64,000 nucleotides of DNA from an uncultured Lachnospiraceae bacterium. GTDB lineage: Bacteria; Bacillota; Clostridia; Lachnospirales; Lachnospiraceae. The position numbers were made by a program, and so were the translations under genes. A model generated the notes under the pieces. The model had not been told where the DNA came from. It saw only the letters and a program-made list of their open reading frames with translations, and did no database searches. Below, one piece after another: positions 21,462 through 24,389 of this stretch. Within the stretch, counting starts at the first letter, position 1, and each line of letters starts with the position of its first letter. The stretch spans positions 1 to 64,000 of the forward strand of contig CACXAT010000002.1 in assembly GCA_902765725.1 (NCBI GenBank). Reading direction: 5' to 3'.

Positions 21462-22550
21462 TCAAACGTCCGCGCAGACTGCTTTACCGTCACTTACGCG
21501 GAAGATCCTGTCGATCTGCACAGGGCTGTTCTCATATTCCTCCAGTCCCGTACAGGTAATGAAAGTCTGGATCCTGCCGATAGAATCCAGAAGATAATGC
21601 TGCCTGTTTGTATCCAGCTCTGAGAGCACGTCATCAAGAAGAAGAACCGGAATATCCCCCGTCGACTCCTTCACAAGCTCGATCTCCGCAAGCTTCAGTG
21701 AAAGAGCGGCCGATCTCTGCTGTCCCTGGGAACCGAAATGTCTTATATCGACTCCGTTCACGGTAAAACTCAGATCATCCCTGTGCGGGCCGGTCTCTGT
21801 AGATTTGAGATATAGATCCTTCTCACGGCTCCGGGCAAGGCTCCCGGCAAACTGTTCCACACTGACATTCTTCTCATAGCCGACACAGATCTTCTCCCTG
21901 CCGCCGCTCAGCTTCTCGTGGATCGGTTCGATGATCTCCCCCAGCTTGCGCACAAACCGCTCCCTTGCCTCGATCAGAGAAGAACCATACCTGATCAGCT
22001 GTTCATCCCATACATCCAGCGTATCTGCATCCTGCGGTCTGTAGGAGAGATCCTTCAGGAGCTTATTTCGCTGGACCAGGACCTTATTGTAGGCTGCCAG
22101 CGCGGATACATACACCTGATCCAGCTGGCACAGCTCCATATCCAGAAACCGTCTTCTCTCAGAGGGACCATTTTTGATGATTCCCAGATCTTCAGGAGAA
22201 AAGAATATAAAATGACCGAGCCCGATCAGCTCCTGCGCCTTCCGGATCGCGATCCCATTGATTGCGATCCCCTTCGCCCTGGATTTGCGAAGATGCATAT
22301 CGATTCTGTAATCAATGTCTTTTTTCGACATCTCCATCCGAAGATGGGCTTCATCGGAATCAAAACGGATCAGTTCTCTGTCTCTGGAAGTCCTGTGCGA
22401 CCTTGTAGTGCCGCAAAAATAGATGGCCTCGAGTATGTTCGTCTTCCCCTGGGCATTATCTCCGTAAAAAAGATTGGTCCCTCTGGAAAATGACAGCTCC
22501 AGACCATCGTAGCTTCGAAATTGTTCCAGTTTAAGCGTGCTGATGTACAT
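21462..22550 (-). CDS. recF: DNA replication and repair protein RecF
   Basis: A 362-residue SMC-like ATPase that helps load RecA at gaps. The start at ATG 22550 gives the usual MYISTLKLEQFRSY; a TTG six codons upstream is the alternative. Walker A is GDNAQGKTN near residue 30; the ABC-type signature region SQGQQRSAALSLKLAE and Walker B (PVLLLDDVLSELD) are in the C-terminal part. The beginning overlaps the end of yaaA by 20 bases, as is common for this pair. It is part of the dnaA-dnaN-yaaA-recF series. Confidence 0.96.
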   Translation of the reverse strand: MYISTLKLEQFRSYDGLELSFSRGTNLFYGDNAQGKTNILEAIYFCGTTRSHRTSRDRELIRFDSDEAHLRMEMSKKDIDYRIDMHLRKSRAKGIAINGIAIRKAQELIGLGHFIFFSPEDLGIIKNGPSERRRFLDMELCQLDQVYVSALAAYNKVLVQRNKLLKDLSYRPQDADTLDVWDEQLIRYGSSLIEARERFVRKLGEIIEPIHEKLSGGREKICVGYEKNVSVEQFAGSLARSREKDLYLKSTETGPHRDDLSFTVNGVDIRHFGSQGQQRSAALSLKLAEIELVKESTGDIPVLLLDDVLSELDTNRQHYLLDSIGRIQTFITCTGLEEYENSPVQIDRIFRVSDGKAVCADV

Positions 22551-22752
22551 GGATCTCTTCGCTCTCAAAACCTACCACGTCACCATCATGGATCTTCTTG
22601 CCCCTCATCGTGCAGACCTCACCATTGACGGTAACTTCTTCATTTTCGATCACATGCTTGGCATCGGATCCTTCATCAACAAGCCCGGCAGCCTTCAGAA
22701 GCTGGCCAAGCTTGATGTAATCTTCACCTGCGCGCAGTATAAAATCTTTCAT
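22531..22752 (-). CDS. yaaA: S4-domain RNA-binding protein YaaA (RlbA family)
   Basis: A 73-residue protein made almost wholly of an S4 RNA-binding domain (YIKLGQLLKAAGLVDEGSDAK, VTVNGEVCTMRGKKIHDGD). The ATG at 22752 follows AGAGGA; the frame is open nine codons further upstream. YaaA sits between dnaN and recF in many Firmicutes, and a link to ribosome assembly has been proposed. Its ribosome-binding site abuts one arm of an unusual structured repeat (22762-22897), suggesting possible control of translation. It overlaps recF by 20 bases. Confidence 0.92.
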   Translation of the reverse strand: MKDFILRAGEDYIKLGQLLKAAGLVDEGSDAKHVIENEEVTVNGEVCTMRGKKIHDGDVVGFESEEIHVHQHA

Positions 22753-22761
22753 AATAATCCT

Positions 22762-22897
22762 CTCGATGTGTGTTAGCATGTTTTATCTGCAGATATCGCC
22801 TTGCGCATCGCTTCGCTGCTTCGCAGCTCCCACGATGCTGACACACATCGAGTGCCTCCTGTGCTGCTTCGCATCACGGCACTCGATGTGTGTTAGC
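22762..22897. repeat. Palindromic, highly structured repeat between dnaN and yaaA
   Basis: CTCGATGTGTGTTAGC occurs twice as a direct repeat (22762-22777 and 22882-22897), and its near-perfect complement lies between them (22837-22852). The right pair extends to 19 bp (22837-22855 with 22879-22897, one G-U-type pair). Smaller stems are nested: GCATCG (22805-22810) with CGATGC (22833-22838), GCTGC-ttc-GCAGC (22815-22827), and TGC-ttc-GCA in the loop. The middle arm can pair with either outer copy, giving two exclusive folds. It resembles a REP/MITE-type element and covers the yaaA leader. Confidence 0.8.
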
Positions 22898-22914
22898 GTC
22901 TCTCATGCAACGAC

Positions 22915-22939
22915 GGACCGGCACATAAATGTGCCGTCC
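22915..22939 (-). terminator. Hairpin after dnaN
   Basis: Stem GGACCGGCACAT / ATGTGCCG-TCC with a 2-nt loop and one bulged base, about 30 bases after the dnaN stop. No T-run follows on the minus strand, so it may be a weak terminator or an mRNA-stabilising structure. Confidence 0.4.
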
Positions 22940-22967
22940 GGTCTTTGCATGGAGACTGGGCGATATC

Positions 22968-24068
22968 TTACACGAAGTTGACCGGCAGTACCAGGTAGAT
23001 GTAGGATCCCGCGTCATCCCTGATAAAGCAGGGCGCCTTGGAATTCAGGAAGTAGATGGATATCTCTTCATCGTCTATTACACGCAGTACATCCAGTATG
23101 AACTTCGGGTTGAATCCAATCCTCAGTTCCTTTCCTTCAGATTCCACTGCTACGTCATCGGACATGGAGCCTGCCGAGGAACGAATCGAAAGATTCATGG
23201 AATCTGCAGCGATCGTCAGTACCAGAGTTCCTTTGTCAGATTCACTGGTAAAGAGCATGGCTCTGTCTACAGCGCTCATAAGAGCTGCCTTTTTAACACG
23301 GATCTTCGTCTCATAGTCATTGGACAGCATCTGGTCAATGCGGAAATACTTTCCGTCGATCAGGCGCGATACCACCAGGGTTCCGTCCATCTCAAACAGA
23401 ATCTGGTTTCTGGTAAAGTAGACGCGTACTTCATCCTCGATCTCTCCGGACACGATCTTGCTGATCTCGCTGAGCGTCTTTCCGGGGATGATCGCCTCAT
23501 AATCCTCGTAGGAGGACTCAAGATTCAGCTGGCGGATCGCGATGCGGTGTCCGTCCAGAGCCGTCATGCGAAGCTCATTTTCATGGATCTGCAGATTCTC
23601 ACCCGTCATGATCTTGTTGGCATCATTGGGCGAGATCGAGAACAGGGTCTGGCGGATCAGTTCACGCAGCTGGAACTGGTTCAGTATCACCGGATTCTCT
23701 CTGTCCACAGAGGGAAGTGGACTGAATTCCGTTCCGTCCTTGCCAACGATATTGAATACAGAATTCTCACAGGTAATGGTCGTCTGATAATTGGGTGCAG
23801 TTTCTATGGTAATATCCGCATCCGGCATCTTTCTGATGATCTCGGAGAACAGTTTTGCATCCAGGCAGATCAGACCTCTCTCTTCTATGGTTCCCTTTAC
23901 CTCAGTCTCGATGCCAAGCTCCATGTCATTGCCGGTAAGCTTGATCGTGTCAACCGTCGCATCGATCAGAACGCAATAGAGAATGTTCATGGTCGTCTTG
24001 GAGGGAACTGCCTTCAGAACAATATTCAGAGATTTCGACAGTTCCTGTTTCTTCGCTGTGATCTTCAT
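22968..24068 (-). CDS. dnaN: DNA polymerase III sliding clamp (beta subunit)
   Basis: A 366-residue protein from the ATG at 24068, which follows AGGAAGG; the open frame extends 46 codons upstream across the promoter region and is not used. The start MKITAKKQELSKSLNIV and the three repeated clamp domains (about 1-120, 125-245 and 246-366) are typical, ending in YLVLPVNF as in other beta clamps (peptide-binding C-terminus). It encircles DNA and tethers the polymerase and repair factors such as DinB. It is separated from dnaA by 321 bases with DnaA boxes. Confidence 0.97.
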   Translation of the reverse strand: MKITAKKQELSKSLNIVLKAVPSKTTMNILYCVLIDATVDTIKLTGNDMELGIETEVKGTIEERGLICLDAKLFSEIIRKMPDADITIETAPNYQTTITCENSVFNIVGKDGTEFSPLPSVDRENPVILNQFQLRELIRQTLFSISPNDANKIMTGENLQIHENELRMTALDGHRIAIRQLNLESSYEDYEAIIPGKTLSEISKIVSGEIEDEVRVYFTRNQILFEMDGTLVVSRLIDGKYFRIDQMLSNDYETKIRVKKAALMSAVDRAMLFTSESDKGTLVLTIAADSMNLSIRSSAGSMSDDVAVESEGKELRIGFNPKFILDVLRVIDDEEISIYFLNSKAPCFIRDDAGSYIYLVLPVNFV

Positions 24069-24389
24069 ACCATCATCGCCTTCCTCATACAAATAAATAA
24101 AAACAAGATCCGTATTATTCTTATTATAGCCTGTGGAAAGGTGGAAATATGGCTTCAGCCTTCCTGACCACAGCATTTTTCGACTGGAAAACCTGTTGGA
24201 GAACAAGATTGTTCAAACAGGAAAACCATCCATCTATCCACAGACCGTTCGAAGATCCGGGAAGAACGATCCCTCTTTCCGGATCAGAACCTGATCGTTC
24301 ATCAACCGTATTCCCAACTGATTAACTCGTTTAAACGGTGGAAAAGTGGATAATTCAGTGGAAAAGTTATTATTTTATCAAACAGAGCC
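24069..24389. other. oriC, dnaA-dnaN part (DnaA boxes)
   Basis: A gene-free 321-base segment. DnaA-box-like 9-mers are CTATCCACA (24234-24242) and AGTGGATAA (minus-strand TTATCCACT, 24345-24353), with further GTGGAAA-type partial boxes around 24131-24147 and 24338-24365. An A/T-rich stretch lies at 24361-24390. A -10 box TATAAT (24128-24123, minus strand) with a poor -35 region precedes dnaN. With the segment on the other side of dnaA it forms a two-part origin as in Bacillus subtilis. Confidence 0.7.

Follow-up and report, generated by a model that had tools for sequence, protein, structure and literature searches.

Between dnaN and yaaA, in the replication operon of an uncultured Lachnospiraceae bacterium, lies a nest of palindromes. 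What does this element do, and where does it come from? The original prediction, made for a 64,000-nucleotide stretch of contig CACXAT010000002.1 (assembly GCA_902765725.1; this whole stretch is the window), was that a middle arm can pair with either of two outer arms and in this manner could switch the translation of yaaA, and that the element could be a REP/MITE-type insertion. Here we examine the pairing of the arms, the fate of the element in sister genomes, its relatives elsewhere, and the marks which these relatives have left in their flanks.

The Element in the dnaN-yaaA Gap

The gene order on the minus strand is dnaA, dnaN, yaaA, recF, followed by what we take to be gyrB and gyrA, named from their open reading frames only. 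The yaaA reading frame scores 71.7 bits against TIGR02988, i.e., under the curated cut-off of 84.75; the synteny dnaN-yaaA-recF also supports the naming. The stop codon of dnaN and the start of yaaA are separated by 215 bases (Table 1).

The 16-mer GCTAACACACATCGAG is present on the minus strand in two exact direct copies, A' and A'', and once as an inverted copy, B, with one mismatch. The three arms are real, as had been claimed. The longest direct repeat in 22762-22897 is 16, compared to a maximum of 13 in 2000 dinucleotide shuffles. The inner pairing covers 23 nt with 91% complementarity (22834-22856 with 22878-22900), the outer pairing 18 nt with 94% (22762-22779 with 22835-22852). The fold predicted for the RNA of 22740-22930 is better than that of 200 out of 200 shuffles for either strand, with z-scores of -4.2 (minus) and -6.4 (plus).

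The span of 22762-22897 that was originally assigned is too small, although the repeat in it exists. The whole element begins at about 22967, beside the stop codon of dnaN, and extends to about 22791; A'' is located outside. The ends of the element are terminal inverted repeats of 10 bp, AGATATCGCC/GGCGATATCT, and the first A of AGATATCGCC is the final base of the dnaN stop codon.

Table 1. Features of the dnaN-yaaA gap and its neighbours (window coordinates).
Feature	Position	Strand	Basis and remarks
dnaN, DNA polymerase III beta	22968..24206	-	TIGR00663, 247 bits; upstream neighbour; stop TAA at 22970-22968
Left terminal repeat / closing-stem 5' strand AGATATCGCC	22959..22968	-	sequence; complementary to 22791-22800
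Core element, full-length RF01699 match	22794..22965	-	cmscan, model 1-166/166
Hairpin 1 (GTCTC...GAGAC)	22898..22956	-	predicted fold; Rfam structure
Hairpin 2 5' arm, A' copy of 16-mer	22882..22897	-	exact repeat; predicted fold
Hairpin 2 3' arm B, inverted copy, one mismatch	22837..22852	-	P ~1 with A'
Hairpin 3, conserved GGGAG...CGAAGC type internal loop	22805..22838	-	predicted fold; family alignment
Right terminal repeat / closing-stem 3' strand GGCGATATCT	22791..22800	-	sequence and predicted fold
Third arm A'', exact 16-mer repeat	22762..22777	-	beyond Rfam element
yaaA Shine-Dalgarno GAGAGG	22759..22764	-	sequence; first three bases common with A''
yaaA, S4-domain protein near RecF	22531..22752	-	downstream neighbour; ATG 22752-22750

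Pairing of the Arms and the yaaA Ribosome-Binding Site

A switch would have B paired either with A', leaving the ribosome-binding site of yaaA open, or with A'', closing it. The location of the outer arm is as proposed, since A'' covers the first three Shine-Dalgarno bases. A switch further needs two exclusive pairings of similar stability, and these were not found. When the 261-nt dnaN-yaaA leader (22972-22712) was folded as RNA, the minimum energy was -116.7 kcal/mol with A'-B formed and -97.6 kcal/mol with A' blocked, i.e., about 19 kcal/mol apart. The probability of A'-B is close to 1, that of B-A'' 1.15e-10. In addition, A' is transcribed well ahead of A''. If A' is blocked, B does pair with A'', yet the following AGGAUUAUU lies outside of that helix and the core AGGA is unpaired.

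The same leader in the sister genome G012 has a coordinated change: base 8 of A' and of A'' is altered from C to A, and B is altered to match. At first sight this favors a switch. However, such a three-place change could also arise in palindromes through gene conversion or through template switching. A'' of G012 carries a second change, T to C, which is uncompensated. The outer pairing in G012 is mismatched, its duplex amounts to -10.9 versus -24.7 for A'-B, its probability is 4e-12, and it is absent even with A' blocked. An intrinsic terminator or an internal promoter for yaaA was also considered and rejected: neither a terminator nor a promoter-like site is present on the minus strand near the window copy.

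The Element in Sister Genomes

Where the dnaN-yaaA gap of relatives was read, an intact element is found at this position only in the genome of the window (G000) and in G012. In G007 the end sequence is kept and the interior is deleted. In G005 the left end breaks off after about 14 bp and gives way to unrelated sequence. The gaps of the other relatives that were read contain no element. An assignment as a conserved yaaA leader was rejected on this distribution of two intact copies and two remnants. Given the pairing energies and this comparison, the switch model was rejected as well, and we consider it extremely improbable in spite of the three arms and the coordinated change in G012.

The unrelated sequence in G005 amounts to about 280 bp and contains repeated GGGTAAAGAAG/CTTGCCCAA motifs, possibly another small repeat. 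In the gap of G010, tandem copies of GTAAGTGAATTTC stand right behind the dnaN stop codon.

At a second locus, wzm-wzt, G000 and G005 have the full element, G012 has only hairpin 1 left, and in other relatives the element is absent or replaced. Repeated internal deletion at both loci speaks against a conserved job.

A Dispersed Family Catalogued as RF01699

The core element matches RF01699, the Clostridiales-1 RNA, on the minus strand with 70.7 bits (gathering cut-off 48, E-value 1.6e-14), and is alike in sequence and structure across all 166 model positions. It is nevertheless a divergent copy: hairpin 2 is one nearly perfect long stem and an extra arm is present downstream. The genome possesses only one further RF01699 copy, on contig C20 (54.9 bits, sense orientation). 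From our own reading of the genes it presumably separates the permease gene of an ABC transporter from that of the ATPase. The 16-mer, too, is confined in this genome to the dnaN-yaaA gap and to contig C20, where it has one mismatch.

A search beyond this genome, as suggested with the original prediction, disclosed a dispersed family: RF01699 matches are present in 58 out of 145 relatives, with counts from 0 to at least 18 per genome. A closer look at 12 genomes gave 19 copies in G110, 17 in G003, and 15 in G004. Many dispersed copies without a link to start codons had been named in advance as evidence against a switch, and this is what was found. Tandem head-to-tail copies were seen in G080, G110, G006, and G004. 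Three to five RF01699 units are lined up in arrays at G080:C5 256720-257222, G110:C1 1032209-1032955, and G006:C4 52186-52702.

A covariance model made from an alignment of 29 copies was used to locate copies in the fetched loci. Of the 34 consensus pairs in this alignment 33 show at least one double change. Rfam classes RF01699 as 'sRNA'. Weinberg et al. (2010; PMC2864571), who list the motif from Clostridiales and human gut, consider it 'probably RNA' and give 'probably not' both for a cis-regulatory function and for a switch. One may then ask whether this is a genuine family of trans-acting small RNAs with many gene copies, of which the window copy is cotranscribed with dnaN. The strong covariation, the conserved internal loops and the ratio of G-U to A-C pairs of about 2:1 (see below) agree with such a family, as do both of these classifications. 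Against it stand the wide range of copy numbers among genomes of one family, the lack of a promoter-like site or intrinsic terminator on the minus strand near the window copy, and the marks of mobile DNA, i.e., tandem arrays and the terminal repeats, 5-bp duplications and deletion derivatives described next. We regard a small RNA family as very unlikely.

Ends, Target Duplications, and Deletion Derivatives

The RF01699 model ends short of a 3' terminal hairpin that is present in TGAT-type copies. Where flanks were inspected, these copies extend past the Rfam 3' end by an extra hairpin ending in ...CCTTTTGACCCCAACATCA and, when it is included, they possess terminal inverted repeats of about 19 bp, TGATGYYRGGGTCAAAAGG. 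Among 31 copies in which the 3' end could be recognised, 21 are bordered by identical 5-bp flanks, compared to a mean of 2.04 and a maximum of 8 in 500 shuffles. The duplicated 5 bp correspond to TNNNA, with T first in 20 and A last in all 21 cases. An excess of identical flanks was observed at one other length only, 6 bp (4 vs. 0.14 in shuffles). The end pattern TGATGTTGGGGTCAAAAGG, allowing up to 3 mismatches, is present at 101 places in G056, 68 in G045, 41 in G003, and 21 in G020; a reversed control yielded 0-1. Two deletion derivatives of 38 bp (L271) and 71 bp (L275) have kept both ends and their flanks are repeated.

The situation at the window copy and in its TATCGCC subfamily is different: target duplications are absent, with none of four showing at least four out of five direct matches, and longer closing stems are present in their place. 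In the TATCGCC and TAAGTCC subfamilies the flanks tend to be inverted-complementary and no duplication is detectable. An intact TGAT-type terminal repeat was not found in the genome of the window, where a single match at 3 mismatches compares with 2 for the reversed control. Among the end-pattern matches listed for G045, G056, and G065 no inward-facing pair of ends 0.8-3.5 kb apart surrounds a transposon, and those listed for G003, G020, G045, G056, and G065 contain no autonomous partner element.

Like MITEs, the family is short, non-coding, multi-copy, and equipped with terminal inverted repeats, and the TGAT-type relatives show 5-bp duplications. It departs from them in the window subfamily, with its longer closing stems and lack of target duplications, and in an interior that retains an RNA-like structure. 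With REP/BIME elements and their RAYT transposases the family has in common that it is palindromic, intergenic, dispersed, often located behind stop codons, and occasionally arrayed. It differs in its larger size (about 170-210 bp), the inverted ends, and the target duplications; the latter are not known from Y1-type REP transposition.

The proposal of a REP/MITE-type insertion in the replication operon is therefore borne out for the family, which is dispersed and has terminal repeats and 5-bp duplications. It does not carry over in full to the window copy, which is without a target duplication. Since these marks were found in TGAT-type copies, a MITE origin of the TATCGCC and TAAGTCC subfamilies is inferred by homology, and the presumed MITE status of the window copy rests on the same homology.

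The Third Arm

Many of 128 solitary copies have a partial repeat of the element downstream, up to 60 nt long; matching upstream flanks never exceed 12 nt. In many TGAT-type copies the downstream match is the 3' terminal hairpin. In others, such as L002, L174, L186, and L197, it is a partial second unit. In L002, the C20 copy of the same genome, hairpin 2 is duplicated downstream at the corresponding place. A'' of the window copy fits such L002-type duplicates, and judging from the sequence it is probably a partial downstream repeat of the element, i.e., a decayed second unit.

Gene Context and Possible Selection on the RNA

Genes were called with a purpose-written codon-usage caller. Solitary copies between co-directional genes are oriented 66 times in sense and 27 times in antisense (binomial p 6e-5, with relatedness ignored). 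About 40 of the 109 copies with a sense upstream gene have their first base between -8 and +13 relative to the stop of this gene, and in 12 copies the element's own TGA is the upstream stop codon. Does this indicate an intercistronic REP-like element for message stability or processing, the hairpins of which shield the upstream dnaN message or serve as substrates of RNase III? The placement at stop codons, including the start of the window copy beside the dnaN stop, and the sense bias point in this direction. On the other hand, insertion at TNNNA also yields proximity to stop codons, so that the placement partly derives from the target sites, and at both loci studied sister species have lost the element or much of its interior. 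We find this explanation distinctly unlikely. The choice of TNNNA leaves the sense bias unexplained.

In the paired columns of the alignment G-U was counted 128 times and A-C 63 times, among 5022 Watson-Crick cells; a tRNA control of 8 genes gave 10 vs. 0. Upkeep of a palindrome at the DNA level alone would predict a ratio of about 1:1, a strongly selected RNA a far larger one. The interior covariation, the kept loops, and the G-U excess leave room for selection on RNA. That the interior of the MITE is selected as a folded, sense-biased RNA module behind stop codons, which acts on the stability or processing of the host message and makes insertions tolerable, appears unlikely.

Origin of the Element and Meaning of RF01699

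The window element is probably an old copy of a dispersed family, the interior of which is catalogued as RF01699, and this family a MITE. The family would be a non-autonomous DNA transposon with TGATGYYRGGGTCAAAAGG ends, moved in trans by a transposase; its insertions, often beside stop codons, would target TNNNA and duplicate 5 bp there. The TATCGCC subfamily of the window would descend from the same transposon as the TGAT-type copies, the insertion at dnaN-yaaA would predate the split of four sister species, and A'' would be what remains of a second unit. Provided that dnaN-yaaA is one transcript, the element would be read through in sense. In this message four helices are predicted to make it a stable spacer; the inner hairpin would be permanently formed and the ribosome-binding site of yaaA accessible, so that no switching is expected. 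Passively, the element might influence the stability of the message or its cleavage by RNase III.

For this locus the meaning is limited: an old insertion in a replication operon, of no conserved role. What is useful is the reinterpretation of RF01699, the locus itself being ordinary. Although Rfam lists the family among the small RNAs, copies of the TGAT type act as mobile DNA, and the model omits their ends and duplications. In a Lachnospiraceae genome, automatic annotation will report as many as dozens of 'sRNA genes' which are probably transposon copies. Covariation, though strong here, did not by itself tell a small RNA from a transposon. In the literature searched, which left most subscription journals outside, there was no earlier report of RF01699 as a transposon and nothing relevant on MITEs in Lachnospiraceae or Butyrivibrio.

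A minor observation concerns the C20 copy (L002/L077, G000 C20 18965-19137) and its counterpart L076 on contig C1 of G005. The host bases beside the closing stem change pairwise between them, TGA/TCA versus TAA/TTA, and these paired changes stretch the palindrome into the stop codon of the upstream gene.
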